Source: Bacteroidales bacterium
GTDB lineage: Bacteria > Bacteroidota > Bacteroidia > Bacteroidales > UBA932
Length of the DNA stretch: 54,450 bases
Direction of reading: 5' to 3'
NCBI GenBank assembly: GCA_017554305.1
Contig: JAFZIN010000020.1
Location: 1 to 54,450 of the forward strand
Positions 1 through 29,130 of the stretch are shown one piece after another. A program made the translations under genes and the position numbers. The notes below the pieces were generated by a model. That model was not told where the DNA came from. It searched no databases and worked only from the letters and a program-made list of their open reading frames with translations. Numbering within the stretch: position 1 is the stretch's first letter; the number at the start of each line of letters is the position of its first letter.

Positions 1-563
1 ACGGAGGAGAAAATGTTGAGCGGGTCTTTGCCAATGTTGGAGGAGATGAAACCGGTGGAGGGGAGCATCATCATTGTAACATCCTGGGAGAGTTGCTCTT
101 CCACGCCCTGAGGGGTTGAGATTATCTGCTCAATGTGAGTGTAGTCTGAATCTGAGAGCATAAGAGGAATGTTGCCGTAGATGAAGTCTGTTATGCCGGA
201 GAGTTCTTCAAAATCTATCTGGGACATCACCTCACTTATATGTTTTGTGTGGGAGGAGGTGATTATGTTGGCAAAGGTCTCTACGGCCTGGGTGATTTGC
301 TCTTCTGCGTTTGCAGGCGCGGCGGTGGCGGATGGGTTTGCGGAGAAGAGAGCTATAACCCGCTGGCCGCCTGTAATATCCTGGTAGAGAGCCATTGCCC
401 TCTGCTGTTTGCCGCTTATGGGGAGGAAATCGTAGATGTTCTCATTGTACTTGAGTGCGGCGGTCATAACAATGAGAAGTATGGTTATGCCGGCCAGAAG
501 ACCAAAGCAGAGGCTCCGTTTTCTCTTAAGGTAATCGTAGATATTCAAGAAGAATTGCACCAT
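1..563 (-). CDS. RND/MMPL-type exporter, N-terminal part (cut by window edge)
   Basis: The minus-strand frame from ATG at 563 stays open to the left edge (187 codons). It begins with a short basic stretch (YLKRKR) and one hydrophobic segment at about residues 18-36. A long extracytoplasmic region follows, beginning KYNENIYDFLP, and this is how MMPL/RND transporters of aryl polyene and flexirubin clusters start. The gene begins four bases after the stop of the BtrH-like gene, so it is in the same operon. In related clusters such proteins are proposed to move the lipid or pigment product towards the outer membrane. That role is inference here, because the transmembrane core and motifs lie outside the window. 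Confidence 0.7.
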   Translation of the reverse strand, partial: MVQFFLNIYDYLKRKRSLCFGLLAGITILLIVMTAALKYNENIYDFLPISGKQQRAMALYQDITGGQRVIALFSANPSATAAPANAEEQITQAVETFANIITSSHTKHISEVMSQIDFEELSGITDFIYGNIPLMLSDSDYTHIEQIISTPQGVEEQLSQDVTMMMLPSTGFISSNIGKDPLNIFSS

Positions 564-567
564 CTTC

Positions 568-1596
568 TTATCTCAGGTATTGTTTTGAAACGGCGTAAAG
601 TTCCTTAAAGAAAGAGAGCTCTTTCTCTCCAATGGCCTGCAGCATATCTCCCAACTGGTCAAAGGTGTAGTTCTCCTCCGTGCTTCTCTTTTTAAACATT
701 CTGGAGATTTTGTAGGCAAAATCTCTCCACATATCTCCAATCTCAGTTATCCTTTGAGAGTAAGCGTTAAACTCCTCAATGCCTGTCTTTTGCGCGGCCT
801 CCTGCAGGAAGGCACCGTAAATGAATCGGAACCCTGCGCCGCCTGTTCCAATCTCCTCAAGCATACGAACAATCTGCGCAAGGTTCAGCAGTGCACGGCG
901 GCGCCCCATCTTCTTTTCCCATTTGCGGATTCTCTTGGAGAGATAGATAATGCCTTTGGCTCCCACAATGTGAACCGGGGTATAGGCCATAAGTTTGGAG
1001 GTCTTGCGTATAGATTTGAGAATGAGGAGCTTCATATTAGGAAGTTCCTTAGGTACCTCCTCAATCCAATACATCTGACCCATAAGCGGGTAGGTGCCTC
1101 CCTTTGCAAACCTCACGGTCTGAAGATCTTTTGCGGAGATGGTAACTTTCTGTGTAATGTTGGAATCTAAAACTGTATAGTCTCCGCTCTTTTCATCCTT
1201 TCCTATTACGCAGATATTGTGGCCGTTAAAGTGGAATCGGTACTCTATTGGAACGTAAGGCAGGTAGTACATTCCAACTACGCAGCCTACGGGGATGCCT
1301 CTCTTTAAGAGTTCATCAAGCTTACTCATTGCCTTCTCCTGATTGAAGAAGCGCTTGGTTTTTCTTCTGATTCCCAGCAGTTTGGTAATGCGGCTGAAGA
1401 AGACGCCCGGGAAGGTGCGGAATGATGTTACCGGCATTCCGCTAAGTTTTACAAATGGAAGATGGGTAAAGAACAATCCGCTTGAAAGGCCAAACACCAT
1501 TGGCTCAGAGAGGTTTATGCCGTAGTATCTGAGCAGGGCAGATACCGTTCCGTTCTCACAGTGGGCGGCCTGTTTATGTTCCAGTTTCAGTTCCAT
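568..1596 (-). CDS. BtrH N-terminal domain protein (C39-like fold)
   Basis: 342 residues. The first 40 residues (HKQAAHCENGTVSALLRYYG, Cys13) match the BtrH N-terminal domain, a papain/C39-like fold. BtrH itself transfers an acyl group from an acyl carrier protein in butirosin synthesis. The His expected to partner Cys13 is probably the one in FNGHNICVIGKD, near residue 125, followed by TVLDS. The C-terminal half is helical and resembles the DUF4872-type extension. Proteins like this recur in Bacteroidetes dialkylresorcinol/flexirubin clusters, and it sits here between the exporter and an HTH gene. An acyltransferase acting on carrier-bound acyl groups is plausible, but the substrate is unknown. 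A peptidase is less likely because no peptide precursor is visible. Confidence 0.75.
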   Translation of the reverse strand: MELKLEHKQAAHCENGTVSALLRYYGINLSEPMVFGLSSGLFFTHLPFVKLSGMPVTSFRTFPGVFFSRITKLLGIRRKTKRFFNQEKAMSKLDELLKRGIPVGCVVGMYYLPYVPIEYRFHFNGHNICVIGKDEKSGDYTVLDSNITQKVTISAKDLQTVRFAKGGTYPLMGQMYWIEEVPKELPNMKLLILKSIRKTSKLMAYTPVHIVGAKGIIYLSKRIRKWEKKMGRRRALLNLAQIVRMLEEIGTGGAGFRFIYGAFLQEAAQKTGIEEFNAYSQRITEIGDMWRDFAYKISRMFKKRSTEENYTFDQLGDMLQAIGEKELSFFKELYAVSKQYLR

Positions 1597-1605
1597 CTTT
1601 TCTAT

Positions 1606-2028
1606 TTAGGACTCTGTTTTGGTGTCTATCTGGGGAAGGCTTTTTAACTCCTCAACTGAGATTCTAAGAGCTTTGGCGTAGGTCTCCAGAGTTGCATCAT
1701 CCAGCTGGTTGAAATACTTGGGCTTAAGGTGTTTGCGAATGGTGTGCCTTCTCAGTCCTGTATATTTTGCCATGAGTTTTACGCTCATAATGTGCCTTGC
1801 AAGATGATACTCCAGAGGTGAACTCTCTCCCCTTTTTACTCTCTCTGCAATCTCACGGCACTTTTCTTTTATCTCATCCCAAGCCATATCAAGCGCCTCT
1901 GTTTTAGGGTCCCACCCGCCGCTGAGAACAGCCTTGTACTCACCGTTTTCATCCACCGCATAGTTTACATCTCTTACGATGGTATCTTTGTAGTACTTTA
2001 AATCCTGTGGAACGTCCTTAACCTTCAT
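1606..2028 (-). CDS. Small helix-turn-helix protein inside the resorcinol/polyene operon
   Basis: 140 residues. The first 65 residues are mixed and acidic. From about residue 75 (LEYHLARHIMSVKLMAKYTG, then LRRHTIRKHLKP) there is an HTH-like arrangement of the Cro/XRE sort with a basic second helix, followed by LDDATLETYAKALRISVEEL, which reads like the last helices of an XRE domain. It lies 12 bases after darB and ahead of the BtrH-like gene. It is probably a DNA-binding regulator of this cluster, but no operator could be assigned. A non-regulatory role cannot be excluded. Confidence 0.6.
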   Translation of the reverse strand: MKVKDVPQDLKYYKDTIVRDVNYAVDENGEYKAVLSGGWDPKTEALDMAWDEIKEKCREIAERVKRGESSPLEYHLARHIMSVKLMAKYTGLRRHTIRKHLKPKYFNQLDDATLETYAKALRISVEELKSLPQIDTKTES

Positions 2029-2040
2029 AGCGCCTTATAT

Positions 2041-3177
2041 TCAGCAGACTGTGAGCATGCAATAGCAGTAGGAGAAGCGGGCGCTCTCCGGTATCATAAC
2101 AAGAATCTTCTCTCCCTTCTTAAGTTTTCCGGAGTAGAGCAGTTCCTCTATCATTGCGTATGCGGAGGCGGATGCAATGTTGCCAACCTTTGGAAGATTA
2201 ACAAACCACTTCTCTTCATCAATGTAGAATCCGCGCTTTTTGGTCTCGCTTAAAATCTTCTCTTTAAAGAACATAGATGAGAGGTGAGGGAGGAACCAGT
2301 TTACACTGTCGGGAGTAAAATTATGCTTTTTGGCAAGCTGAAGGAGGAAGTCTATTCCTAAGCTCACAATGTGCTCAGAGAGCATGCGGGTATCCTGCTT
2401 AACTGCAAAGAGAGATTTTGTAAGCCACTCCTGCTCAGGGTATTCCGCCCATCCTTTGAGTTCTCCCTCCTCAGTTTTGTCTGCTCCGGCATACATGCAG
2501 GTAGGCTTGGTGTTGGCAAAGGAGGTAATCTCAATCCAATCTATCTTAAGTGAGAGTTGCTCTTTATTTGGCTGAGGTTCAAGTAGAAGCGCAAAGGCTC
2601 CGTCTGAGAGCATCCATCGTAGAAACTCCTTTTCAAAGGCCAGAATAGGCTGGTTTTCCAAAGAGGAGAGGTGCTCAGATTCCTTCTGAAAATAGGAGGC
2701 TTTCATCCAGGATGAGAGTCTCTCGGAGGCAGAGGCCACAGCCTTTTTTGCCTCTCCGGTCTTAACGGCCATGTAGGCGTATTTAAGAGCGTCTGCACCG
2801 GTGCAGCAGGAGCCGGAGAAGGAGACAACTTCTGTATTGCGGCTGCCGCCAAGAAGACCGTGAACCATAATTCCGTGGGATGGAACCAGTTGCTCCGGTG
2901 AGGAGGTTCCGCAGGAGAGAAGGTCTATGTCATCTATGGTGAAATTCTTGTCTAACAGACCCTTAACCGCATTGGCCGCCATCTGGGCGTTGGTGTGGGT
3001 AACGTTGCCGTTCTTATCCAGGGCATAGTATCTCTGCTTAATGCCGTTACGCATTAAGACAATCCTGCGCGCCTTGGACGGCTTACCGTTAACCATACCC
3101 AGATAACTCTCCATATCATCATTAGATACGGGGCTGTTAGGGAAGAACTTGGCCGCTTTGTTTATATATACTTCCAT
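2041..3177 (-). CDS. darB: DarB-like beta-ketoacyl synthase (KAS III fold)
   Basis: 378 residues, normal for the StlD/DarB family. The active-site nucleophile lies in SGSCCTGADAL (Cys124/Cys125). The other two members of the Cys-His-Asn set are visible as His298 in WFLPHLSS and Asn333 in VGNIASASAY. In characterised systems DarB condenses two acyl-derived chains into a cyclohexanedione, which becomes a 2,5-dialkylresorcinol. The next gene downstream in transcription is the HTH gene, and darA lies just upstream with a 15-base gap. It is probably cytosolic, since no signal or membrane segment is seen. Housekeeping FabH is a weaker alternative, because the long 200-260 insertion and the darA neighbour favour DarB. 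Confidence 0.85.
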   Translation of the reverse strand: MEVYINKAAKFFPNSPVSNDDMESYLGMVNGKPSKARRIVLMRNGIKQRYYALDKNGNVTHTNAQMAANAVKGLLDKNFTIDDIDLLSCGTSSPEQLVPSHGIMVHGLLGGSRNTEVVSFSGSCCTGADALKYAYMAVKTGEAKKAVASASERLSSWMKASYFQKESEHLSSLENQPILAFEKEFLRWMLSDGAFALLLEPQPNKEQLSLKIDWIEITSFANTKPTCMYAGADKTEEGELKGWAEYPEQEWLTKSLFAVKQDTRMLSEHIVSLGIDFLLQLAKKHNFTPDSVNWFLPHLSSMFFKEKILSETKKRGFYIDEEKWFVNLPKVGNIASASAYAMIEELLYSGKLKKGEKILVMIPESARFSYCYCMLTVC

Positions 3178-3192
3178 TAAAGGTATCTTGTT

Positions 3193-4086
3193 TTATAATT
3201 TACAGTCTCTTAGTTTATTACTCTTTATGTTGCGCAGCGGGCGGGTCAAATGGAAGACCAGTTGCGCAAACGGGGAGAGCACAAACAGCACAAACAGAAG
3301 GTAAAAATAGAAAAGATTTACTCTAAATTGTCGTTTAGGCTCCCTGTATCCCCCTTTTTTCCGTATGAACTTTGCCCATCTGCCAAAAATAGGGTAGGCG
3401 GTTTTCTCTAAAGAGAGTACGGATGGGCGGTATTTTATGGCCCCCTCCTTTAAGAGTTCATTCTGGAGCGTGGCGGTATTACCGCTTAATAATGAGTTCT
3501 CTATAACCTTTCCAAACTTGGCGGCGGCAGCAAGTTCACCTTCAGAAACTCCCGCCTCCGGCAGAATTTTGGTTGCCTGTTTCTTGCCGTGAAGAAGCCA
3601 ACGCACTATGGTTATGGCACTTACGTAGTTGGACGCAGAGTCCTGCAGAATGATCTGACCTCTGAAGTTGGCTCCTATCTCTTTGAATTTCAGCTTTAAA
3701 GCCTCCGATGTCTTAAGCCACATATTGCGGCAGACGTTCACAAAAACAACATCTCTGCCTTTGAGGAAATTCTTAACATTTTCATTGCAGAGGAAAGAGA
3801 GGAGCGGAAGTGACGGGGAAAGGAACCAGGATTGGGCTGCAATAATCACAATATCAGCATCCTGAGCATCTGTAAGGTTCAAGGGAGCAATGCCGGAAGT
3901 ACAGATTCCCAGACGGGTCTCCGGAAAGACCTCAAAGAACTCTCTTCTGCTCCACGGAAAAGGGTAGTGCTCCAGGGGTACAATCTCCTTGCAGATAACA
4001 TCTGTCTTTTCAAATCCTTTGCAGATGTTTTCCGCTGCCCTTAAAGCCTGGCCGCTCTGTGAATAGTAGAAGAGAACCGCTTTCAT
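3193..4086 (-). CDS. darA: DarA-like dialkylresorcinol condensing/aromatising enzyme
   Basis: 297 residues. The start MKAVLFYYSQSGQALRAAEN is a flavodoxin-type phosphate-binding loop. This matches the flavodoxin-fold DarA proteins annotated beside darB in Bacteroidetes. The region DIVIIAAQSWFLSPSLPL fits the second flavin-binding edge of that fold. A hydrophobic stretch near residues 255-280 (FYFYLLFVLFVLSPFAQLVF) suggests membrane attachment near the C terminus. In known pathways DarA acts with DarB to turn the dione into the aromatic resorcinol. The gene is separated by one base from the hotdog gene upstream. The family assignment is strong, the exact chemistry is inferred. Confidence 0.8.
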   Translation of the reverse strand: MKAVLFYYSQSGQALRAAENICKGFEKTDVICKEIVPLEHYPFPWSRREFFEVFPETRLGICTSGIAPLNLTDAQDADIVIIAAQSWFLSPSLPLLSFLCNENVKNFLKGRDVVFVNVCRNMWLKTSEALKLKFKEIGANFRGQIILQDSASNYVSAITIVRWLLHGKKQATKILPEAGVSEGELAAAAKFGKVIENSLLSGNTATLQNELLKEGAIKYRPSVLSLEKTAYPIFGRWAKFIRKKGGYREPKRQFRVNLFYFYLLFVLFVLSPFAQLVFHLTRPLRNIKSNKLRDCKL

Positions 4087-4087
4087 A

Positions 4088-4456
4088 TTACTCAGAGAAT
4101 CTGAATTTTAGAGTCATTACAACAAACAGGTTCTCTGCATCCTCAATGCTTACATTTGTTGTAAGACAGTCCTCTTCCTCCACCGTTTTGTTGAATACAA
4201 CGGAGTGCTCTCCGGTTGGAACAACGGGGAGTTTGAACTTCATGTTGCGGGCCTTGTAAAGCTCCAGCTTTCTGCCCAGATGTCTCTGCAAAATCTCCTG
4301 AGCAATCTGCACCAGACAAACGCCCGGCGTAACCGGATTCCCCGGAAAATGAACGCTGTAGAGATTGTGATTTGGGTTTAGCCTAATCACGCATCTGTAT
4401 TCACTTTCCAACTGAACCTCGGAAACTATGTGAAAAAAATCATCAATCAGTTTCAT
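4088..4456 (-). CDS. FabZ/ApeI-like hotdog dehydratase
   Basis: 122 residues, one hotdog domain. The segment YSVHFPGNPVTPGVCLVQ is the FabZ/FabA signature, with the conserved His in HFPGNPVTPG. In aryl polyene loci this protein (ApeI) removes water from 3-hydroxyacyl carrier-protein intermediates, building conjugated double bonds. It overlaps the preceding exported-protein gene by 14 bases, which indicates translational coupling. Because a second dehydratase-like gene (7668-8111) is also in the operon, the two may form a heterodimer, as ApeI and ApeP do. Confidence 0.8.
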   Translation of the reverse strand: MKLIDDFFHIVSEVQLESEYRCVIRLNPNHNLYSVHFPGNPVTPGVCLVQIAQEILQRHLGRKLELYKARNMKFKLPVVPTGEHSVVFNKTVEEEDCLTTNVSIEDAENLFVVMTLKFRFSE

Positions 4457-4892
4457 ACTGCCCTTTTAGCGGTGAAAATCTGTATTCTATTTTATGGCGG
4501 CCGGAAAAACAGATATCATCCTCCTCAAACCACATTTTCCGCCTCCCAGTTTTAATCTCATCTTTCTCAAACAGATGGGCAAGGATAAAGTTGAAATCCT
4601 TTCTTAGAGCCCTTCTTATAAACCACCTGTTTGCAGGGCCAATCACGTTGAGAATCCGGGCCTTGCCGTTCTCAAAGGTAAAATCAAACACCTTAACTCC
4701 CATCTCGTTTATTACCGTTCCCACAACAGAACCCTGCTCCCGGCTCTCCATAACGCATATTCCTGTAATTTGCTGCCCTCTTACAAAGATACGCAAATTA
4801 TACTCTTTGCAGAGCGAATCACTTTGCAAGGACTCCCCGCTGAGCGGAGAAAGTGAGAGAAGCAATATGTTAATCAACAGCAAAAATCTCAT
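4443..4892 (-). CDS. Small exported protein of the polyene/resorcinol cluster
   Basis: 149 residues with a clear N-terminal signal sequence (MRFLLLINILLLSLSPLSG). The rest is predicted beta-rich with alternating charged and hydrophobic residues and no cysteine lipobox. Size and place beside a LolA-like gene resemble the DUF3261-type lipoproteins of aryl polyene clusters, but the sequence alone does not prove this. It overlaps the LolA-like gene by 23 bases and the hotdog gene by 14 bases, so it is firmly part of the operon. It probably works in the periplasm on transfer of the lipid product. Confidence 0.55.
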   Translation of the reverse strand: MRFLLLINILLLSLSPLSGESLQSDSLCKEYNLRIFVRGQQITGICVMESREQGSVVGTVINEMGVKVFDFTFENGKARILNVIGPANRWFIRRALRKDFNFILAHLFEKDEIKTGRRKMWFEEDDICFSGRHKIEYRFSPLKGQYETD

Positions 4893-5496
4893 CCTTAAGT
4901 GGGGCGTTAATCTTTGTCTTATTGAGTTTTACAAGGGTCTCATCTCCGCTTTTTTCCACCATACGTACGCTGCTTACCATAGTGAAAGAGGGGTTGAAGA
5001 ATATTTCCACCACCTCATATATCTGTTTGAGTTCCTTCTTTTTAGGGTAGAGGCGGGCAAAGTAGGCCCCATCTTTCTCCCAAATCTCTGCACTGAAATC
5101 GGGAGAGTTTTTAAGCCCGGCACCCGTAATGCAGTCTACAATTATTCCTGTTATGCGGCGGAAAATCTTGTTCTCCTGAACGTTAATGTTCTGGGTTGAT
5201 TTTGAGGTCTTTATCTGCACATTGTCTCCGTTGAGAAGAAAGGTATAATCGTATGGAGAACTGTACTGCCAGAGTAGTCTGTTGGGCTTTTTAAAGTACA
5301 TCTTACCCTGTGAAACCATCTGACGGCTAAGCATTTTCATGCTCTTTGTCTGGGTAAATTCACACTGCATGGAGCTCATCTTTGCTCCCTCTGCATCTAT
5401 CTTTTCCAGTATCTCCTTCTGCTTCTCCGCCGTAAGTTTGTTCTGACCGGAGAGGGTAAGAGGAATGAGCAGTAATATAATGGCTAATAATCTCAT
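4870..5496 (-). CDS. LolA-like periplasmic lipid carrier
   Basis: 208 residues with a signal peptide (about residues 1-17, ending LTLSGQ). The pattern MQCEFTQTKSMKMLSRQMVSQGKMYFKKP then LLWQYSSPYDYTFLLNGD is typical of LolA: an early aromatic-Thr motif, GKMYFKKPNRLLW and a strand with the NGD turn. LolA family members bind acyl chains in a half-barrel. In aryl polyene and flexirubin clusters a dedicated copy probably carries the product, not lipoproteins, across the periplasm. It overlaps the upstream ketosynthase gene by four bases (ATGA). Confidence 0.8.
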   Translation of the reverse strand: MRLLAIILLLIPLTLSGQNKLTAEKQKEILEKIDAEGAKMSSMQCEFTQTKSMKMLSRQMVSQGKMYFKKPNRLLWQYSSPYDYTFLLNGDNVQIKTSKSTQNINVQENKIFRRITGIIVDCITGAGLKNSPDFSAEIWEKDGAYFARLYPKKKELKQIYEVVEIFFNPSFTMVSSVRMVEKSGDETLVKLNKTKINAPLKDEIFAVD

Positions 5497-6476
5497 AATC
5501 TTTTCAGTATGGTAAGTGAAACTTCATTCTTTTCCGTTCTGTTTATAACTATTATACTCCCGATAGTTTCTCTTTTCACTATATGTGCTGCAGCATAAAC
5601 ACCTGCCGCCGATGCTGCAAAATTCTCCCCGAACAAATTTTTGTAGGTAAGCAGAGGTTTGTTTTTAAAGAGCCTCTTTGCCATCTCAAAGTAAGGAGTG
5701 TCATTAGACGGGTTGCCGTTTGCTCCCGTCATAACGGCATCTATGTTCTTTACTTGTGCATCCTGCAACATCTTGTCTGCCACCTCTTTAACTCTCTCTA
5801 AAGAAGGGTTGTTCAGAAGGCGTACTCCTGCAAGTTCACATAGATTTTCATCAGACTCTTTGGTGTTAAGCATCATTGCAACGGAGATATCTGAGTAAGG
5901 AACCATACCTTCAACTCCAACATATCCTACCTTTTTTAAAAGTTCAAAGTGGATGGCGCTTGTTTCCTCATGCCCTCCAACAAGAGCGTTGGAGATATTT
6001 CCAAGCTGCATCTGCATAAAGCCGTCTGAAAGAGCGGCGTCAAAACTCATATTTGCGTGAGAGTATGTGGTGTTGTAACCCTTTGTTTCTGTTGCTATTG
6101 CAATGGTTGTGCTTACGGCGTTGTGGATGGCCTGCATAAAGAACATTGGGCTGAGTGCCTCCTCTTTGTTGCCGCAAAGTTCTTTGAGGAATCCGTTGGT
6201 TCTCTCCAAACTTCCAAAGCAGGTGCCGGAGATAATTGCATCCGGATGTTCAACGTTGCACCTCTTTAATACTTCTAATGAGACGGCCAGCGCACGCTTC
6301 AGATAGGCAGAGGAGCGGCGCATCTGGTTTGGCGCAAAGTACTGGCCCCAAGGGGGATCAACCGCCTTGGCAAAAGGCTCCTGGCACACAACGGGAGCCT
6401 TCATCCAGTTCTCTGAGAGAGGTTCCTGAATGGAGATCTGTGATGCGGCCTCTATGTAAACTCTTCCTGCTGTCAT
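5493..6476 (-). CDS. Ketosynthase-like chain-length factor, active-site Cys absent
   Basis: 327 residues, shorter than a normal KAS I/II (about 410). The fold is recognisable from IISGTCFGSLERT, MQAIHNAVSTTIAI, ALVGGHEETSA and VMTGANGNPSNDT. Where a ketosynthase has TACSS, this protein has YNTTYSHANMSF (residues 134-145) with no cysteine. It is therefore probably the non-catalytic partner (chain-length-factor type) of the ketosynthase encoded just upstream at 6473-7666, with which it overlaps by four bases. ApeC and related proteins in aryl polyene loci play this role. Confidence 0.75.
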   Translation of the reverse strand: MTAGRVYIEAASQISIQEPLSENWMKAPVVCQEPFAKAVDPPWGQYFAPNQMRRSSAYLKRALAVSLEVLKRCNVEHPDAIISGTCFGSLERTNGFLKELCGNKEEALSPMFFMQAIHNAVSTTIAIATETKGYNTTYSHANMSFDAALSDGFMQMQLGNISNALVGGHEETSAIHFELLKKVGYVGVEGMVPYSDISVAMMLNTKESDENLCELAGVRLLNNPSLERVKEVADKMLQDAQVKNIDAVMTGANGNPSNDTPYFEMAKRLFKNKPLLTYKNLFGENFAASAAGVYAAAHIVKRETIGSIIVINRTEKNEVSLTILKRL

Positions 6477-7666
6477 ACCTTTGAGAGAATAATTGAAGAG
6501 TCGTTTCCGCCAAAGCCAAAGGCGTTGCTCATTATGTTTTTAATCTCACCTTTTGGGTGAATATCTGTTACCGGAACAATGCCGTTCTCCATTGGGGTCC
6601 TAAAGTTGAGGCTTGCAGGAAGGAACTGTTTTTCAAGGACAAGCAGGGAGATGACCGCCTCAACTGCCCCGGAAGCTCCCGTTGTGTGCCCGGTGTAGGA
6701 CTTTGTGGAGGAGACCTCCGGAATCCTCTCTCCAAAGAGGCGTTTTATGGCACAGCTCTCGCTCTCGTCATTGTTCAAGGTGGCCGTTCCGTGTGCGTTT
6801 ATGTAGTCTATCTCCACCGGAGAAAGCTCCGCTTTCTCAAGAGCCTTTTGCATTGCCTGAAAGGCACCCTCTCCTGTAGGAGAGGAGGCGGTTTGATGGA
6901 ACGCGTCACAGGCGTTTCCGTACCCCGCAAGGCGGCATAACGGCCTCACCCCGCGCCTTTTAATGGAGGATTCACTCTCCAGCACAAGGTATGCGGCGCC
7001 CTCTCCCAGGTTAAGGCCTGCCCTCTCTTTGTCAAACGGACGGCAAGGGTGGGAATCCAAAATCATAAGGGAGTTGAATCCGTTAAGATGAAAGAGTGAA
7101 AGGCACTCCGCACCTCCCGCAACAACAATATCTGCCATATTGCTCTCAATCATAAAGGCTGCGGAAATAATAGCGTTGGTTGCAGAACTGCAGGCCGTAG
7201 AAACTGTTGATAAAGAGGCAAATGAGCCAAAGTAACCCGCAATCTCCTCAGTAGAGGTTCCGCAGTTGTGAATGGCTGCCGCGGCGTGCTCTCTGTCACA
7301 GTTGCTCTCATTTTCAAAGAAGAGTTCCCTACGGTCCATTCCGCCAACTATGGTAGATGAAACAAGGTGAACGCTACCAATATTTTCACTTTTAAGATTT
7401 GCCTCAGAGAGGGCCTCCCTTAAAGCAACAATTCCCATAAGAACGGTGCGGGATGTTAGCGGATTCTCCTTAATGCCAACCATTTGCATTAGCTCCGCAT
7501 TGCTCCTTTTAACCTCCCCCACAGGAATCTCCACGTGTTTGCTGGTAAGGTATTTCATACTCCCCACGCCGCTCCTTTTTTCAAGTAGGGCGGAGAGGGT
7601 CTCATCCTTTCCAACACCAATGGCGGAGATAACTCCGGCTCCCGATATGTAAACCGGTTTTCTCAT
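6473..7666 (-). CDS. Beta-ketoacyl-ACP synthase (FabF-like)
   Basis: 397 residues from ATG at 7666, which lies one base after the stop of the dehydratase gene; the longer frame to 7708 is rejected. The KAS I/II catalytic set is complete: Cys159 in STACSSATNAI, His292 in NAHGTAT and His327 in YTGHTTGASGA. The glycine-rich C terminus NAFGFGGNDS is typical. It elongates acyl chains on an acyl carrier protein by Claisen condensation with malonyl units. Its tight coupling to a Cys-less partner and two dehydratases points to polyene chain synthesis, not housekeeping fatty acid synthesis. Confidence 0.85.
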   Translation of the reverse strand: MRKPVYISGAGVISAIGVGKDETLSALLEKRSGVGSMKYLTSKHVEIPVGEVKRSNAELMQMVGIKENPLTSRTVLMGIVALREALSEANLKSENIGSVHLVSSTIVGGMDRRELFFENESNCDREHAAAAIHNCGTSTEEIAGYFGSFASLSTVSTACSSATNAIISAAFMIESNMADIVVAGGAECLSLFHLNGFNSLMILDSHPCRPFDKERAGLNLGEGAAYLVLESESSIKRRGVRPLCRLAGYGNACDAFHQTASSPTGEGAFQAMQKALEKAELSPVEIDYINAHGTATLNNDESESCAIKRLFGERIPEVSSTKSYTGHTTGASGAVEAVISLLVLEKQFLPASLNFRTPMENGIVPVTDIHPKGEIKNIMSNAFGFGGNDSSIILSKV

Positions 7667-7667
7667 C

Positions 7668-8111
7668 TTAAGCCTTATTCTCTCCTGCTTCTTTATCTGT
7701 AAGCACAATCTTTACATTTGCCTGAGCAACAAGCGTATCTCCCACCTTAACCGTAATATCTGCAAGGGTCAGATGAAAGACCTCCTCCAGAATGTGAACG
7801 TGAGTTGTAAGAACATCATTGCACTTAGGGCTGTAGAAAAACTCGCACTCCTTAACCGCACCAATGTATCCAATCTTTATAGACTCGTTTCTCCCTCTGT
7901 TTATGCAACCCATTCTGGCCGCACAGGACTGCATCATATTCTCCATAATTCCTGCAGTGGAGAGGGTGTTGTCATCTAAAAAAATATTATCCTCACGTAT
8001 TGTAAGTTCCGTGTAAGTGTCTGTACGGTCACTGCTTAAAACCTTGTCTACCATAACAATAGGCGGACGCTGAGGAATCAGTTTGGTTATTTCAATATCT
8101 ATGGGATTCAT
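7668..8111 (-). CDS. ApeP-like hotdog dehydratase
   Basis: 147 residues. The opening LIPQRPPIVMVDKVLSSD and the central helix AGIMENMMQSCAARMG match the ApeP branch of hotdog dehydratases found in aryl polyene clusters. A FabZ-type HFPG motif is missing, so it may be the partner of the HFPG-bearing protein at 4088-4456. It is the first gene of the cluster in reading direction and starts nine bases after thiN ends, so transcription may run through from the housekeeping genes upstream. Confidence 0.7.
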   Translation of the reverse strand: MNPIDIEITKLIPQRPPIVMVDKVLSSDRTDTYTELTIREDNIFLDDNTLSTAGIMENMMQSCAARMGCINRGRNESIKIGYIGAVKECEFFYSPKCNDVLTTHVHILEEVFHLTLADITVKVGDTLVAQANVKIVLTDKEAGENKA

Positions 8112-8120
8112 ACTGTATCT

Positions 8121-8810
8121 TTAAAAAGGAAAATAGAGAAGTGCCTTAGCAGGGTGGTTGAAAATAAGTTTGACCGTAGCAGATGAGAAGGTATTTAAAG
8201 TTGCCTTCCACCAGAGGTCAAAGGTTACATCATCTGTCTTGTACTTAAGCCCTTCAGATTTGATTTTGAGCGTGTTGTCAAAGGAGAAAATGGAGATGCG
8301 GTCTCCCTTTTCTCCCTTAAGATAAACGGTGTTAAGAACAGGAATGAATACTCCGTAATCTGAAACCATGCAGAGAGAAATTTTTTCATCAGGGAATTTT
8401 TCTCTTAGCACTTCTGCATACTGCGGAAGGTAGGAGATATTTCCCAGTGTGTGGTCTTCTCTCTTTCCGGTAGCTCCCAAAATGGTAATCTCAAACTCCT
8501 TTTTGCCCTCAGAGACAGCCTTCTCTATAAGCTTGAGAGTAAGGCGGAAAGCCTTGGTCTGGTCATTGTAGTCCTGCTCACTCTCTTTGTGGATTTTGCT
8601 CCTAAGTTTTTTCTGCATAGATGGAGAGAGAGTATCCATATCTCCCACAATGTACTCTGCATCCAACCCGTTTCTCTTAAGGTTCAGATATGCTCCGTCA
8701 CAGGCAATAACGGTGGAGCGGGAAAGGAGTTTTAACGCATCCTTTCTGGTTGGAAAATTGCCGTCACAGAGAATTACAAAACTCTCTCTACTCAAAGCGG
8801 AGTTCTTCAT
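8121..8810 (-). CDS. thiN: Thiamine pyrophosphokinase
   Basis: 229 residues, usual for the family. The N-terminal catalytic part contains FVILCDGNFP, VIACDGAYLNL and YIVGDMDTLS, the Asp-rich nucleotide- and metal-binding motifs. KESEQDYNDQTKAF and ILGATGKREDHTLGNI are the conserved thiamine pyrophosphokinase signatures; the C-terminal beta domain binds thiamine. It converts thiamine and ATP to thiamine diphosphate and AMP. It overlaps the end of fmt by 23 bases. Confidence 0.9.
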   Translation of the reverse strand: MKNSALSRESFVILCDGNFPTRKDALKLLSRSTVIACDGAYLNLKRNGLDAEYIVGDMDTLSPSMQKKLRSKIHKESEQDYNDQTKAFRLTLKLIEKAVSEGKKEFEITILGATGKREDHTLGNISYLPQYAEVLREKFPDEKISLCMVSDYGVFIPVLNTVYLKGEKGDRISIFSFDNTLKIKSEGLKYKTDDVTFDLWWKATLNTFSSATVKLIFNHPAKALLYFPF

Positions 8811-9774
8811 CTTCTACTAGATTTTTATGTCCGTTAATGAAATCCTTTGCTCCCATCCTTTTGCTTCCCGATGGCTGCAAAGAGGTAATCTCCAAACACT
8901 TATCTGAGCACATAACATATATGCCGCCACCCTTTATCATAACCTTTCCGCACTCTTTTCCTTTAAGATCTGAAGGTGCGGTCATAAAGATTTTCATATC
9001 CAGCCTCTCACCCTTTCCGCTTACAAGAGTAGTAATTGCAGCAGGGTAAGGAGAGAGTCCTCTTACCAGAGCATCCACTTCATCTGCTCTCTTCTTCCAG
9101 GAGATTCTGCAGTTCTCCTTGTTGAGTTTTGGTGCAGCCGCATTCAACTCAGTAAGTCCCTCCTCATTTTGAGGAATTGTTGTAACATCTCCGTTATCAA
9201 CCGCTTGCACGGTTTTAACTACAAGACCGGCGCCCATCTCCATAAGTCTGTCATAAAGAGATTCTACAGTTTCTCTCTCTCCAACAGGGCACCTTTCCTG
9301 AAAGATAATTCTTCCGGTATCTATCTTCTCGTCTATAAAAAACGTGGTAACTCCGCTCTCTTTCTCCTGCTGAATTATTGCCCAGTTGATAGGGGCGGCG
9401 CCTCTGAATTTAGGAAGCAGAGAGGCGTGCAGATTGAAAGTTCCTTCCTTAGGCATCTTCCATACGCACTCAGGCAACATTCTGAAAGCCACCACAATGA
9501 AAAGGTCTGCACTGTAACTCTTAAGAGCATTTAAAAACTCCTCGTCACGCAGTTTAACCGGTTGGAGAATATCTATTTTTTTCTCTGCCGCAGCATTATA
9601 TTCCAGCACAAATTTCTTTACATCACTCTGTGCAATCTGCAATCCTCTTCCTTTGGGTTTATCCGGAACGGTAACAACTGCGGGAATCTCATATCCGGCA
9701 TTCAGCAGCGCCTTTAAAGGTGCAACAGCAAACTCCGGAGTTCCCATATATATGATTCTGCTCTTGTGAGTCAT
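8788..9774 (-). CDS. fmt: Methionyl-tRNA formyltransferase
   Basis: 328 residues, about the normal length. YMGTPEFAVAPLKAL opens the formyltransferase domain. FNLHASLLPKFRGAAPINWA holds the catalytic Asn and His of the family (the conserved Asp lies in the ITTFF-IDEKIDTGRI region). The C-terminal tRNA-binding domain starts near residue 205 (NCRISWKK). It formylates initiator Met-tRNA with 10-formyltetrahydrofolate. It is followed by thiN with overlap and preceded by the permease gene after 25 bases. Confidence 0.93.
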   Translation of the reverse strand: MTHKSRIIYMGTPEFAVAPLKALLNAGYEIPAVVTVPDKPKGRGLQIAQSDVKKFVLEYNAAAEKKIDILQPVKLRDEEFLNALKSYSADLFIVVAFRMLPECVWKMPKEGTFNLHASLLPKFRGAAPINWAIIQQEKESGVTTFFIDEKIDTGRIIFQERCPVGERETVESLYDRLMEMGAGLVVKTVQAVDNGDVTTIPQNEEGLTELNAAAPKLNKENCRISWKKRADEVDALVRGLSPYPAAITTLVSGKGERLDMKIFMTAPSDLKGKECGKVMIKGGGIYVMCSDKCLEITSLQPSGSKRMGAKDFINGHKNLVEDEELRFE

Positions 9775-9799
9775 AAGTCTGATATTGTGAGCTAAAGCA

Positions 9800-11398
9800 T
9801 TACTGCTGAATGCTTTGGCGTTGTGATTCTTCTTCCTGTGCGGCCTTAAGTTCCTCCTCCTTCTTTATGCGGTGCTGGATTCTCTTGGCCTTGCTGAAGA
9901 GTCTTTGGAAGAAACTCTTAATGTTCTTTACAAAGACCTCAGGGTTGAACATTGTGGAGTCCTGAGTAGATTTCCAGGTTAGGAAGGCTGCAAGCGGTGC
10001 CAGAACTATCGTTGAAATAAATGCTCCAATAAATGGAGAAATTGCACCGTCATTTGCAAGCTTCTTTCCGCTAATATCCACAACCCAGTAGAGAACAAAG
10101 AAGAGTATGGATATAATGGCAGGAGTTCCCAATCCTCCCTTCCTCACAATGGCTCCGATTGGGGCGCCAATAAAGAAGAAAATAAGGCAGGCCAGAGAGA
10201 GCGTGAATTTTCTGTAAGTCTCTATTATTGTTCTTCTTAGAGGGTATGCGGTCTGGTAAATCTGGGCGTTGTAAAAACTGTAGTTTACAAGTTCTGTGTT
10301 GAGTGCACCGTATGCAGAAGACCAGGCCTGAACCTTATCTTCATGGTTCTTCCATTTGTAGAGTTCCTTAGCCTTAAAGGCCTTGCGGAATCCCTTGTTG
10401 CGGGCGGTGTCCAACTGATCCTGGTGGCCCAGCCAGTCTCCGTGCAGTGCGTGATGGGTGTGGAAGGCTATTGATGAGTCATTTGCGTGGGTGAGGGAGT
10501 CTCTGTCCTTACGCAGCTGAACAATGTTTTTTGCCATAACCTCGTTGCCGTACTTGCCCTTGTCAGACTTGCTGAAGGCGTAGTTCTGAAGCGGTACGGT
10601 TATCTGCTGGTATGCAAATTTTATCTGCTGCATAGAGAGGGCGGTATCCTGGTAAGTCCTCTTGTTGTCCTCCTTATAATTTACACCGTTATAGAGAGTT
10701 ATGAGAAGTCCCTGCTTATCCGGAGTAATGGAGATTCTGCCGGAATCTGCAAGGGTGAGATCATTGTTTCCGCCCTCTTTGGTATGGTTGTAAATCATAA
10801 TGTTGTGCATGAGCTTGCTGTCATCTCTGCTTCCAATGCGCAGAGTATAACCGTCAATGCCGTCATAGAAAATACCCACCGGAATCTTTATCTCCTCTTT
10901 GGTGTTGGTGATATCCTCCCTTAAAGTGTAGATGTTGTTGTATGCAATAGGGATAAGGTTGTTGGAGGCAAAGAAGGCTGCAACTACAATAACCACAGCA
11001 ATATAGCTGAGCGGACGAATAATTCTCTGAAGTGAGATTCCCGCCGCTTTCATTGAGAGAAGTTCACTGTTTTCTCCCAACGTTCCCATTGTCATAATGG
11101 AGGCCAGAAGGGTAGCAAGCGGAAGGGCGTAAGGTATAAGAGTGCAGGAGCCCCAGGCCATAAACTGAGCAATGATGCTAAAGGTAAGTCCCTTATTTAC
11201 AAGCTCGTCTATGTAGAGCCACAAGAACTGCATCATAAGAATGAAGGTTACAATGGCAAAGGTCATAATGAAAGGACCCAGGAAAGACTTGAACATATAA
11301 AGGTCCAAAGTCTTAACCCCGAGTTTCTTCAGAAACCCCTCCACTGCTTCAGAAACCCTTCTTAGAAGCGGTTGTTTTGACTCCTGTTTTTCAGCCAT
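9800..11398 (-). CDS. LptF/LptG-family permease (LPS export)
   Basis: 532 residues, longer than enterobacterial LptF or LptG (about 360), as in Bacteroidetes. Three membrane segments lie at the N terminus (from FLGPFIMTFAIVTFILMMQF) and three at the C terminus (LACLIFFFIGAPIGAIVRKG, IISILFFVLYWVVD, then FIGAFISTIVLAP). A large periplasmic beta-jellyroll-type domain lies between them. GAIVRKGGLG is the conserved loop of the YjgP/YjgQ family. With the LptB ATPase it would extract lipopolysaccharide from the inner membrane. An OstA/LptA-like gene lies at 48218, far away. The C-terminal tail is charged (KKEEELKAAQEEE). Confidence 0.88.
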   Translation of the reverse strand: MAEKQESKQPLLRRVSEAVEGFLKKLGVKTLDLYMFKSFLGPFIMTFAIVTFILMMQFLWLYIDELVNKGLTFSIIAQFMAWGSCTLIPYALPLATLLASIMTMGTLGENSELLSMKAAGISLQRIIRPLSYIAVVIVVAAFFASNNLIPIAYNNIYTLREDITNTKEEIKIPVGIFYDGIDGYTLRIGSRDDSKLMHNIMIYNHTKEGGNNDLTLADSGRISITPDKQGLLITLYNGVNYKEDNKRTYQDTALSMQQIKFAYQQITVPLQNYAFSKSDKGKYGNEVMAKNIVQLRKDRDSLTHANDSSIAFHTHHALHGDWLGHQDQLDTARNKGFRKAFKAKELYKWKNHEDKVQAWSSAYGALNTELVNYSFYNAQIYQTAYPLRRTIIETYRKFTLSLACLIFFFIGAPIGAIVRKGGLGTPAIISILFFVLYWVVDISGKKLANDGAISPFIGAFISTIVLAPLAAFLTWKSTQDSTMFNPEVFVKNIKSFFQRLFSKAKRIQHRIKKEEELKAAQEEESQRQSIQQ

Positions 11399-11403
11399 TT
11401 ATA

Positions 11404-14022
11404 TTAGTTGCTGATTTTGTTCTTAATAAATTCTACTGCCTCAGTAAGTCCGTCTGCCTTCTTTCCTCCGGCACTTGCAAAGAACGGCTGTCCTCCTCCG
11501 CCTCCCTGTATGAATTTGGCCGCCTCACGTATATCCTTTCCGGCATTCATTCCCTTGGCTACCAGATCCTCCGTGTACATCAGAGTGAGAGAAGGTTTGC
11601 TCTCATCTGTACAAGCACCAACAAAGACCGTGCTGCTGCACTCCGCCTTGAGCATAAATGCAACAGTCTTGAACACTTCTGCAATGAACGGACCCCTTAG
11701 GAGCATAAAGTCCACACCGTTAATGTTTTCTGCGCTCTCCTTTGCCTTCTCCTTAAGCTGTGCGGCTCTCTCTTTAAGTGCCTGCTCTGCCTGTTTCCTG
11801 AAGCCGTCATTCTCCTGCAGAAGTTTCTTGGCACTCTCAACAACGTTAGGTGCGTTCTTAAAGAGTTCCTTCATTGTAATCATGGTATCTTCCATTGTGT
11901 AGATGAGGTTCTCCACATTCTCTCCGGTTGTTGCCTCAATTCTTCTGATACCCGCTGCTATTGCGCTCTCTGAGAGTATCTTAAAGATACCGATTCTTCC
12001 GGTAGATTCAATATGTGTTCCGCCGCAGAGTTCTACGCTCTCACCAAAACGGATAACGCGCACTTTGTCTCCGTACTTCTCTCCAAAGAGTGCAATTGCT
12101 CCGCTCTTTCTTGCCTCATCAATAGGAACATCTCTCATCTCCTCTCTCTTAAAATCTTCTCTTATGAGGGAGTTAACCAGCCTCTCAACCTCTCTGAGTT
12201 TTTCCGGTGCAACCTTCTCAAAATGAGAGAAGTCAAACCTAAGAACCTGAGGGCTTACAAAGGAACCTTTCTGCTCTATGTGAGTTCCCAGAATCTTTCT
12301 TAAGGCATAATCCAGAAGGTGAGTTGCGCTGTGGTTGGCAGCGGCACTGAGTCTCTTCTTTACATTGATGGCTGCGGTAAAGAGAGCGGTTGGCTCTGCC
12401 GGCATCTTCTCCGTAATGTGAATAGGAAGGCCGTTCTCCTTAACGGTGTTAATCACAGTTATCTTCTCTGCACCGCACTCCAGAGTTCCGGTATCTCCAA
12501 CCTGTCCGCCGCTTTCCGCATAGAACGGAGTTCTGTCCAACACAATGTGATAGAGCGTTTTGCCTTTTGTTTTTACTTCACGATAGCGAAGTATCTTAAC
12601 ATCTTTCTCCGTGTAGTTGTCATACCCGGTAAAAAGAGTTTCACCCTCTGAGAGTACAATCCAGTCTCCCTCTTTCTTTGCATCTGCGTTGCGGCTTCTC
12701 TCCTTCTGCTTGCCCAGTTCCACCTCAAATGCAGGAATGTCTACTGTAAGGCCGTTCTCTTTGGCAATCAGTTCAGTAAGATCTATAGGGAAGCCGAATG
12801 TATCATAGAGAAGGAAGGCATCTTTTCCCTCAATAGCCTTTCCGCCCTCCTGTTTGCACTTGGCAACCAGCTCATCCATAAGGCGTATGCCTCTTTCCAG
12901 TGTGCGGAGGAAGGTCTCCTCCTCTTCCTTTATCACTTTCTCAATAAGCTGCTGCTGGCTGCGGATCTCCGGATAAGAATCTCCCATCTGCTCCACCAGC
13001 GTTGCAACCAACTTATAAAGAAGCGGTTCCTTGGTCTGAAGGAAGGTGTAGGCGTAACGTACGGCACGCCTTAAAATTCTTCTTATAACGTAGCCCGCCT
13101 TAACGTTGGACGGAAGCTGACCGTCTGCAATTGAGAAGGTGATGGCTCTTATGTGGTCTGAAATTACGCGGATTGCAACACGGGTGTTCTCATCCTCCTT
13201 TGCGTAATCTTTGCCCGTAAGTTCAGAAACTCTGGAAATAAGCGGAGTGAAGACATCTGTATCATAGTTGCTCTTTACTCCCTGCAGCGCCATGCAGAGC
13301 CTCTCAAAGCCCATTCCCGTATCTACATTATTGTGAGGGAGTTTCTCCAGTGTGCCGTCTGCCCTGCGGTTGAACTGCATAAAGACAAGGTTCCAAATCT
13401 CAATAACCAGAGGGTCTGATTTGTTCACCAGCTCCCTTCCGGGAACCTTTGCACGCTCGGCGTCATCTCTTAAATCTATGTGAATCTCACTGCAAGGTCC
13501 GCAAGGTCCCATCTCTCCCATCTCCCAGAAGTTGTCTTTGCGGCTTCCGTTAAGCACCCTGTCCTCCGGAAGGAAGCGGAGCCAGTTCTCCCTTGCCTCC
13601 TCATCCAGCGGCAGGTTGTCCGGTGCATAGCCCTCAAATACTGTGGCGTACAGGCGGTTAGGATCTATCTTGTAAACCTTGGTGAGAAGTTCCCAACTCC
13701 ACTCAATGGCCTCTTTCTTAAAGTAATCTCCAAAACTCCAGTTTCCCAGCATCTCAAACATAGTGTGGTGGTAGGTGTCATGTCCAACCTCCTCCAGATC
13801 GTTATGCTTTCCGCTCACTCTGAGGCACTTCTGTGTGTCTGCAGCTCTCTTGGCAAATGCCGCCTTGTTCCCCAGGAAAATATCTTTGAACTGATTCATA
13901 CCCGCGTTGGTGAACATCAGCGTAGGGTCATTCTTTACAACCATAGGCGCAGACGGCACTATTGTATGCTCTTTTTCCCTGAAAAAATTCAGGAACGCTT
14001 CTCTAACCTCTTTTGAATTCAT
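11404..14022 (-). CDS. alaS: Alanyl-tRNA synthetase
   Basis: 872 residues, the standard length. [15 protein letters not shown] belongs to the class II catalytic domain. The editing domain carries the zinc ligands [11 protein letters not shown] and CGGTHIEST. The C-terminal DHHA1 region ends [20 protein letters not shown], typical of AlaRS. It attaches alanine to tRNA-Ala and hydrolyses Ser/Gly mischarges. It heads a minus-strand series alaS, lptF/G, fmt, thiN with gaps of 5 and 25 bases and one overlap, and is divergent from the M23 genes. Confidence 0.97.
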
Positions 14023-27828: not shown

Positions 27829-29130
27829 TTATCCTGATATGGCAGATAGGTATGCCATATATTTATGAATCAGGTCTAAGGAAGATATACTACCTGATTC
27901 ATACTGCTCAAAGTCAAGATCGGATATCCGTTCCCGAACCTCGGTGCCATCGTATGTGGCGGCGAGATAATGGCCTCTTTCTCCCGGTTCAACGTGAACG
28001 TCCAGAAAATGCTCCAGGAATTCATCGGCCTTCACATAATTGATGGCATATTCTACCTTTCGCCTCTTGCCGGGATAGGCTGACAAGATGCCCTTTTTTA
28101 CAAGGTCGTCGATGTCCCTTAAAGCGGTATCAAGGGAGACGCTCCCTAAGCGGGACCAGTTTTGTGCAGTGAGTTTTGCCTCCTTTCCATCCAGAAAGAT
28201 GTTCAATACCTTTTTCTGCCTTTTGGATAGATCCACCTCGGAGAACTCGCGCCAAAATACAGACTTATTCAGAATCCCGCTCAACGTTTCCAGAGAGCTG
28301 TCCACGGCTCTGCCAAGGCAGGCGATATACCATTCCAGCCAAGGTGTTATATCCCCATTATAGCAGAAACGCTGCGTTTTCTCCAGAATAGAATAATACT
28401 CTTTCTTCTCTTTCTCAATTTCCCGGGACATGCTGAAGAAACGTCCTTTCCCTCCGTCTATTGCCGCTAAAGCCATATCTGCAATGGCTCGCCCAATACG
28501 GCCGTTGCCATCATCAAATGGATGTATGCTTACAAAAATAAGATGTGCTATGGCAGACCTGATAATGTGGGAGATTCCATTTTCACTGTTAAACCAGTAC
28601 ATGAATTCTTCCATGTAGTCGTTCACGTCGGAGGCCGGCGGTGCCATGTAATGGACTATTTCACGCCCCATGGAACCGGATATTACCTGAACGTCTCCAT
28701 TTCTGTAGTTTCCTACGGTAATTGGATATGATCCACTCTTCCCTGTGGGGAATAGAGCGCTATGCCACCCAAAGATGCGTTCTCTGTCCAGAGGTGCGTT
28801 GCAGTTGCGCGTTGCATCCAGCATCATATCTACGACACCTTCCATAAAATGGGTAAAAGTGCCTGTGGTTTCAATATGGGTGACACCCAGGCGCCGAACG
28901 ATAGAAGAACGCACATCGTCTGTATTGAGACTGATGCCTTCAATGCGGAAGGAGGACACTATGTCCTGGGTGAGAATCTCCACGGACGCTCCAGACCTGT
29001 CATCATCAGCAAGAGAGGCAATTCGACCATGAAGAAAACCGATACTGGCGCTGACCTTTTCTGCAAGCGCTGCAATCTTGTCTTTGTCCCAGTTAAAGTG
29101 CATCCAGTCATATCTTTCGTATATCCACAT
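27829..29130 (-). CDS. Fic-family AMP-transferase with N-terminal DUF4172 and C-terminal winged helix
   Basis: 433 residues. N-terminal DUF4172-like region (WIYERYDWMHFNWDKDKI) includes the inhibitory-helix motif SFRIEG (residues 60-65, S-x3-E-G), so it is a class II, self-inhibited Fic. The catalytic loop HPFDDGNGRIGR is intact at residues 203-214. From about residue 310 (RQKKVLNIFLDGKEAKLT then SLDTALRDIDDLVKKGIL) there is a winged-helix-like domain that could bind DNA. Such enzymes AMPylate host-type or self proteins. No antitoxin gene is adjacent. It faces the plus-strand rnf-end gene convergently. Confidence 0.9.
   Translation of the reverse strand: MWIYERYDWMHFNWDKDKIAALAEKVSASIGFLHGRIASLADDDRSGASVEILTQDIVSSFRIEGISLNTDDVRSSIVRRLGVTHIETTGTFTHFMEGVVDMMLDATRNCNAPLDRERIFGWHSALFPTGKSGSYPITVGNYRNGDVQVISGSMGREIVHYMAPPASDVNDYMEEFMYWFNSENGISHIIRSAIAHLIFVSIHPFDDGNGRIGRAIADMALAAIDGGKGRFFSMSREIEKEKKEYYSILEKTQRFCYNGDITPWLEWYIACLGRAVDSSLETLSGILNKSVFWREFSEVDLSKRQKKVLNIFLDGKEAKLTAQNWSRLGSVSLDTALRDIDDLVKKGILSAYPGKRRKVEYAINYVKADEFLEHFLDVHVEPGERGHYLAATYDGTEVRERISDLDFEQYESGSISSLDLIHKYMAYLSAISG

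Follow-up and report, generated by a model that had tools for sequence, protein, structure and literature searches.

Flexirubins are known mainly from aerobic members of the Bacteroidetes. They are a chemotaxonomic marker of this group and, in the sections of the report drawn on here, the pathway of Chitinophaga pinensis and Flavobacterium johnsoniae comprises DarA, DarB, several ketosynthases (KS), dehydratases (DH), LolA, a glycosyltransferase, an acyltransferase and an exporter (PMC3992019). The dar genes and the flx cluster of C. pinensis have distant locus numbers there, and thus a split pathway is already known (PMC3992019). Arcuflavin of Azoarcus BH72 is, according to the portions of its description considered here, a polyene ester of a dialkylresorcinol (DAR) made from unlinked polyene loci and a dar locus, with a starter other than tyrosine that is activated by an AMP ligase, and with the BtrH-like darE near darB (PMC3949708). 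The aryl polyene (APE) clusters of E. coli, Acinetobacter and Xenorhabdus encode a KS with its chain-length factor (CLF), ApeI and ApeP, the acyl-acyl carrier protein (ACP) ligase ApeH, LolA, a LolB-like protein and RND proteins; the gene lists in the parts of these reports used here are without DarA, DarB, DarG and DarH, and in E. coli the genes form one contiguous cluster (PMC8253772, PMC8041823). Here we describe a dar operon in a stretch of 54,450 nucleotides (the window), which is the entire contig C18 (JAFZIN010000020.1) of the Bacteroidales genome G000 (GTDB lineage UBA932; assembly GCA_017554305.1, 1.82 Mb, 89.5% complete). The system has counterparts of the genes listed for the flexirubin and APE pathways, those of ApeI, ApeP and ApeH being putative; with arcuflavin it shares the unlinked loci and the BtrH-like gene and would share the ester type and the starter activation.

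We consider it rather probable that a pathway scattered over this genome makes a flexirubin-type polyene–resorcinol ester with an ApeH-like starter system, and that the dar operon is an imported island which contributes the resorcinol half, an extra KS-CLF and probably the polyene dehydratase. In contrast to C. pinensis and F. johnsoniae, neither a tyrosine ammonia lyase (TAL; FlxA) nor FlxY was found over cut-off, and loading of the starter probably falls to an ApeH-like ligase that has a dedicated ACP; two hotdog genes sit with the dar genes and not in the native polyene block, and four contigs are involved. Azoarcus BH72 uses a chorismatase for 3-hydroxybenzoate, an enzyme not searched for in G000, and the described part of its dar locus has ABC transporter and ACP genes, which the window operon lacks (PMC3949708). 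Three Prevotella-type clusters (L034, L036, L037) share KS, CLF, LolA, LolB-like protein, ApeI-like hotdog, DarA, DarB, DarH and MMPL exporter with the island, whose gene order is kept in L036 and L037. Unlike the island they are contiguous with ACP, GT2/acyltransferase and acyltransferase genes and have DarG and DarH fused into one gene; the L037 exporter retains an acyltransferase domain, and L137, taken as the contig of L036, also has a ketoreductase (KR), a FlxJ-family methyltransferase and a ligase. The Prevotellaceae-labelled locus L034 contains a tandem pair of such DarG–DarH fusion genes (5705-6958 and 7015-8301).

The operon consists of eleven genes on the minus strand, from 8111 down to base 3. 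All genes named in the original prediction, which had been made from the letters of 1-8111, are present there in one tightly packed operon with spacings of -23 to +15 nt between neighbours; for this count the KS start was reset to the likely ATG at 7666, downstream of the first listed start at 7708. The genes are given in operon order, followed by the adjoining housekeeping gene:

7668..8111, minus strand: FabZ-like (ApeP-like) hotdog, candidate dehydratase half; FabZ-type Glu, no GHFP motif, no Pfam match at E 0.001, fabZ matches weak and below cut-off
6473..7666, minus strand: ketosynthase (KS, ApeO-like); Cys-His-His present, grouping with dar-linked KS in a tree
5493..6476, minus strand: chain-length factor (CLF, ApeC-like, Ketoacyl-synt_2); PF13723, 48 bits
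4870..5496, minus strand: LolA2_flexi periplasmic carrier; NF053544, 196 bits (cut-off 125)
4443..4892, minus strand: LolB-like protein; NF053540 (LolB2_flexi), 30.9 bits, below the cut-off of 60
4088..4456, minus strand: ApeI-like hotdog, candidate dehydratase half; FabA-type match (PF07977), HFP His, no FabZ Glu
3193..4086, minus strand: DarA, flavodoxin-like N-terminal part, candidate aromatase; linkage to DarB, weak flavodoxin signals
2041..3177, minus strand: DarB, StlD/DarB-family ketosynthase; NF053539, 579 bits (cut-off 550), NF005293, 567 bits (cut-off 450); best solved-structure match StlD (5gk0), E 4e-116
1606..2028, minus strand: DarG family protein with HTH_26 (PF13443); NF053536, 142 bits (cut-off 70); the narrower flexirubin_DarG model has a cut-off of 170, which is not reached
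568..1596, minus strand: DarH, BtrH-like acyltransferase, candidate ester-forming enzyme; NF053550, 398 bits (cut-off 300), PF14399, PF16169
3..563, minus strand: MMPL (RND-type) exporter, first 187 aa, cut by the contig end; 94% identity to the L040 MMPL over 178 aa
8121..8810, minus strand: housekeeping gene, which we take to be tpk, outside the island

The predicted flexirubin link and family calls are supported, and DarB, DarH, LolA and the DarG family match curated models over their cut-offs. For DarA and DarB, whose families the prediction had left to a profile search, the outcome was divided. DarB was confirmed, and its Cys-His-Asn residues (read by eye) are common to a Streptomyces homologue. 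DarA was matched at E 0.01 by none of the Pfam and NCBIfam models and is named by its linkage to DarB, which it adjoins in 21 of 25 DarB loci (window included). A Streptomyces plasmid has a 31% DarA homologue next to both a 39% DarB homologue and an ACP, and a second plasmid has the same gene order. A flavodoxin match appeared weakly (E up to 1) in 13 of 21 DarA relatives, and a DarA profile matched the flavoprotein 2mwm over about 100 residues (E 9e-6); this flavodoxin-like signal would suit a redox role in aromatisation. The two Streptomyces plasmid loci (L144, 3556-10807; L145, 3553-10618) encode ACP, DarB homologue, DarA homologue (annotated as hypothetical), FAD oxidoreductase/monooxygenase, SCP2 protein, fabF and P450, and this operon is likely a resorcinol pathway; the DarB homologue was compared in L144. 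The LolB-like proteins form a cluster of ten members including that of the window. The full-length exporter has 1037-1048 aa in the close relatives' loci L040 and L041, and PF03176 was found in L040. The L040 exporter (9083-12196) has no acyltransferase match after the MMPL part, unlike the exporter of L037 and the one in the native polyene block described below.

The predicted ketosynthase pair is, more precisely, a KS with a CLF; in the CLF the cysteine motif of the KS active site is missing (read by eye). We also considered that these two genes could be the KS/CLF pair of the g13-type dar operons and rejected this, since the KS is 64-67% identical to those of L036 and L037 compared with 46-47% to that of the g13 dar operons, and the tree agrees. 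The two hotdogs that the prediction listed as dehydratases look like halves of one active site. In the ApeI-like proteins the HFP His (H36) is invariant (9/9), and the position of the FabZ Glu is Gln in eight and His in one. In the FabZ-like proteins the FabZ-type Glu57 is invariant (12/12) and none of the twelve has the GHFP motif; at the His position they have an acidic residue by HMMER alignment and a hydrophobic one by ungapped count from the Glu, and two of them (L042, L043) carry a His elsewhere in the loop of the GHFP position. The housekeeping FabZ of G000 keeps both catalytic residues. It is one of only two proteins found in G000 by the FabA model, the other being the ApeI-like hotdog of the window; the model is blind to the FabZ-like hotdog. 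The chains of 6qsr, which we take to be the ApeI:ApeP complex, were matched by the ApeI-like profile (6qsr_A, E 3.5e-7, third in the list) and by the FabZ-like profile (6qsr_B, E 1.1e-4, seventeenth, FabZ chains scoring better). Because the catalytic residues are complementary, with the His in one protein and the Glu in the other, we infer that the island hotdogs are probably the two halves of one ApeI:ApeP-like dehydratase. ApeI and ApeP are described, in the part of the report used here, as a heterodimer sharing a single active site (PMC8041823).

The missing genes had been expected left of base 1, and a left flank without ACP or polyene genes had been named as evidence against the prediction. 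In the two closest complete loci, L040 and L041 (G037 and G019; DarB identity 98% and 96%), no more than 20 nt separate the exporter from a following opposite-strand gene. Hence in these two relatives the operon ends with the exporter, and neither ACP nor polyene genes lie in this flank; their operons contain no carrier protein, lyase or ligase. An extension of the operon to the left was thus rejected; the remainder of the exporter gene was not found on the other G000 contigs, which have only two paralogues. The empty flank does not refute the pathway, because ACP, KR, KS-CLF, ligase and acyltransferase genes lie on other contigs.

The site of the operon was also read in relatives without it. 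In G021, G032, G014, G022 and G010 (5/5 read) the order alaS, yjgP, fmt, tpk, opposite-strand gene, tgt, yjgQ is found without the operon (gene names as we presume them), fmt and tpk being inverted in G014. As to open reading frame (ORF) calling, tpk was not called in G021 and tgt not in G032; the site of G001 was left out of the count as its stretch is too short. There is a four-base overlap, stop to stop, between tpk and the gene after it in G032; at this place G037 has the exporter stop. Since the site is empty in relatives and the exporter stop replaces that of tpk, the operon forms an island, about 10.6 kb long, just downstream of tpk. No direct repeats of 10-18 bases were reported between the two island ends of L040. 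Five other members of the genus, here called clade 2, have their dar genes after uvrA, followed by an endonuclease/exonuclease-family gene in the four with enough sequence; these loci contain DarA, DarB, DarG, DarH, LolA and MMPL.

The window DarB is 71-77% identical to its counterparts in five loci, of which four bear a Prevotella or Prevotellaceae label, compared with AlaS identities of 56%, 59% and 54%/64% (two pieces) to three of those genomes. Within the genus DarB and AlaS agree (clade 2, 76-79% and 77-80%; G014, 67% and 74%). In the DarB tree the genus and these five loci make up a single clade (100/97) that leaves out the other genera of the family; L035 and L038 entered this tree only. 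In the KS tree the island KS groups with the dar-linked KS of L036, L037 and G014 (93/96), apart from the second KS of G000. As DarB identity exceeds AlaS identity, and from both trees and the empty site in relatives, we take the operon to be an imported island, with its DarB and KS closest to Prevotella-type flexirubin clusters.

The genes that the island lacks were found elsewhere in G000. A block on contig C3 encodes KR, a LipA-type acyltransferase, ACP, KS, CLF, GT2 and an MMPL-acyltransferase protein, along with an esterase-like protein, one more acyltransferase-like protein (AT2) and a small protein that weakly resembles ArnE/F. A block on C9 encodes a KS fusion, a 74-aa ACP and a 446-aa AMP ligase. 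A third block, on C31, has KS, ACP, MMPL, FAD oxidoreductase and LolA; we are unsure whether it belongs to the pathway. By sequence, the polyene synthase set of KS, CLF, KR, DH and ACP is thus complete in the genome. The C3-type block is without both hotdogs in all six Dar-positive species searched by hidden Markov model (G000, G037, G019, G021, G032, G011; the upstream part in G021 by BLAST only), and the blocks of G029 and G031 have no hotdogs by BLAST. Among Dar-negative members with such a block, four of five read (G028, G033, G003, G036) carry an ApeI-like domain as part of their GT2 protein, and G028 and G033 have a FabZ-like hotdog within the stretch read as well; the block of G026 was kept outside these counts. 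The native polyene block is without specialised dehydratases, and the island probably supplies the pair.

A different product would be a free dialkylresorcinol lipid made from fatty acid intermediates, with KS-CLF and hotdogs of the island feeding acyl precursors and the polyene blocks serving an unrelated aryl polyene lipid. The operon alone, being without ACP, KR and ligase, would suit this, as would the clade 2 dar loci, which have no KS-CLF and of which four of five lack the ApeI-like half, and the presence of C3-type blocks in Dar-negative species too. However, the descriptions of the models that DarH and LolA2 match name dialkylresorcinol or flexirubin systems, and the C3-type blocks of Dar-positive species are without just those hotdogs that the island carries. 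We therefore regard the free lipid as unlikely.

The evidence on the starter comes from the whole genus set of 39 members, ten of which are Dar-positive and have DarH. None of these ten, G000 included, has a second, TAL-type lyase over cut-off. The single lyase of G000 lies between two ORFs, one of 671 and one of 409 aa, sizes that we take to be those expected of the histidine pathway, and was rejected as a pigment lyase from these neighbours. Each of the ten has one lyase, in the score class of the G000 and G014 lyases, the two whose neighbours were read. FlxY had no match at E 0.001 in G000 and was over cut-off in none of the ten; matches below cut-off were seen in G032, G014 and three Prevotella-type genomes. 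Eight members carry the second lyase class, called TAL-type by score, with polyene neighbours in the five read (G034, G022, G001, G010, G012). Seven of these eight have FlxY over cut-off and G038 a partial match below it; DarH is present in none of them.

The ligase of the C9 block shows the reverse distribution. Strong orthologues are present in 18 of the 39 members (in two pieces in G030), including all ten Dar-positive members and none of the eight with the TAL-type lyase, and thus the two starter systems appear to be mutually exclusive. Uncorrected for shared ancestry, Fisher p is 0.004 for ligase versus TAL type (the ligase associations having p 0.004 and 7e-5) and 0.086, weak alone, for Dar versus absence of the TAL-type lyase. 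The ligase adjoins polyene genes in G028, G003, G008, G014 and L137. Our guess is that it loads acids from rumen plant phenolics; the acid may also be derived from chorismate, no search aimed at chorismate lyase having been made. Large NRPS-like frames of 2423-2981 aa with AMP-binding matches were seen in two genus members (G008:C99, G010:C21) and in one Prevotella-labelled genome (G199:C147 and C136).

It is improbable, in our estimate, that the pathway is a classical flexirubin pathway with a coumarate starter whose tyrosine lyase and FlxY are merely missing from incomplete assemblies. The Dar-positive assemblies of the genus are 73-90% complete, and outside the genus Dar-positive genomes do have a TAL-type lyase (8/8 tested; six further strong-DarB genomes were left out of this count) and FlxY (3/3 tested). 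Against it stand the alternative ligase in all ten Dar-positive members, their single lyase and missing FlxY, and the three Prevotella-type genomes, which have no lyase at all and no FlxY over cut-off. Less credible still is a polyenyl resorcinol without an aryl head, in which a fatty acyl start feeds KS-CLF and dehydratase and DarB condenses the polyene chain: the lyase and FlxY searches found no dedicated source of an aryl acid and the C9 ligase is similar to fatty acyl ligases, but the place of this AMP ligase next to an ACP and a KS fusion, and next to polyene genes in other species, fits ApeH-type aryl loading.

The flexirubin-type ester that we favor would, judged from sequence, be made as follows. 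By homology, DarB would condense two acyl thioesters to a cyclohexanedione, which DarA would aromatise. The polyene acid would be assembled in trans to the island: the AMP ligase of C9 would load an aromatic acid onto the small ACP, KS-CLF of island and C3 block together with the C3 ketoreductase would extend the chain, and the two hotdogs would act as the one shared dehydratase proposed above. From the chemistry of BtrH, and from the DarG–DarH fusions, DarH with DarG is the candidate for esterifying the polyene acid to the resorcinol. LolA, the LolB-like protein and the MMPL exporter would then move the product to the outer membrane.

Several observations weigh against this scheme. For the ester step of flexirubins, which we assign tentatively to DarH, FlxW has been proposed (PMC3992019). 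The best matches of the ligase are models of fatty acyl-CoA ligases and MenE, below their cut-offs. With the incompleteness given above, some of the Dar-positive assemblies may simply miss a lyase or FlxY. 6qsr is the best match of neither hotdog profile, four of five clade 2 species retain the FabZ-like half only, and G011 and G021 are without any ApeI-type protein genome-wide by the FabA model. G017, which lacks a Dar locus, also has a C3-type block that is free of hotdogs. Finally, as KS-CLF is duplicated in the genome, the copy of the island may serve another role.

Outside the island, the protein encoded at 27829-29130 of the window has a HPFDDGNGRIGR stretch (read by eye), which we take to be a Fic-like motif.

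Resorcinol, aryl polyene or flexirubin-like matches in gut genomes have been published, and this arrangement was not found among them as far as the available parts of these reports go. In the literature searched, the imported trimmed island, hotdogs apart from the native polyene block and a flexirubin-type set without TAL-type lyase and FlxY are new. The nearest named relatives of G000 come from water buffalo and yak rumen, which makes a rumen origin probable for this uncultured gut bacterium. Tentatively, and as a possibility rather than an expectation, we put forward the wider proposal that rumen-type Bacteroidales need neither tyrosine lyase nor FlxY to make flexirubin-like DAR esters, using another, perhaps plant-derived aromatic acid via the ApeH-like ligase, and that in this genus the pathway arose by import of a trimmed Prevotella-type island, whose dehydratase pair completes the dehydratase-less native synthase. 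If this is true, a scattered and partly horizontally acquired version with another starter would widen the known flexirubin chemistry and could help to explain bare 'resorcinol' matches in gut genome mining. It would also provide a clean natural example in which a native type II polyketide system is complemented by an imported island.

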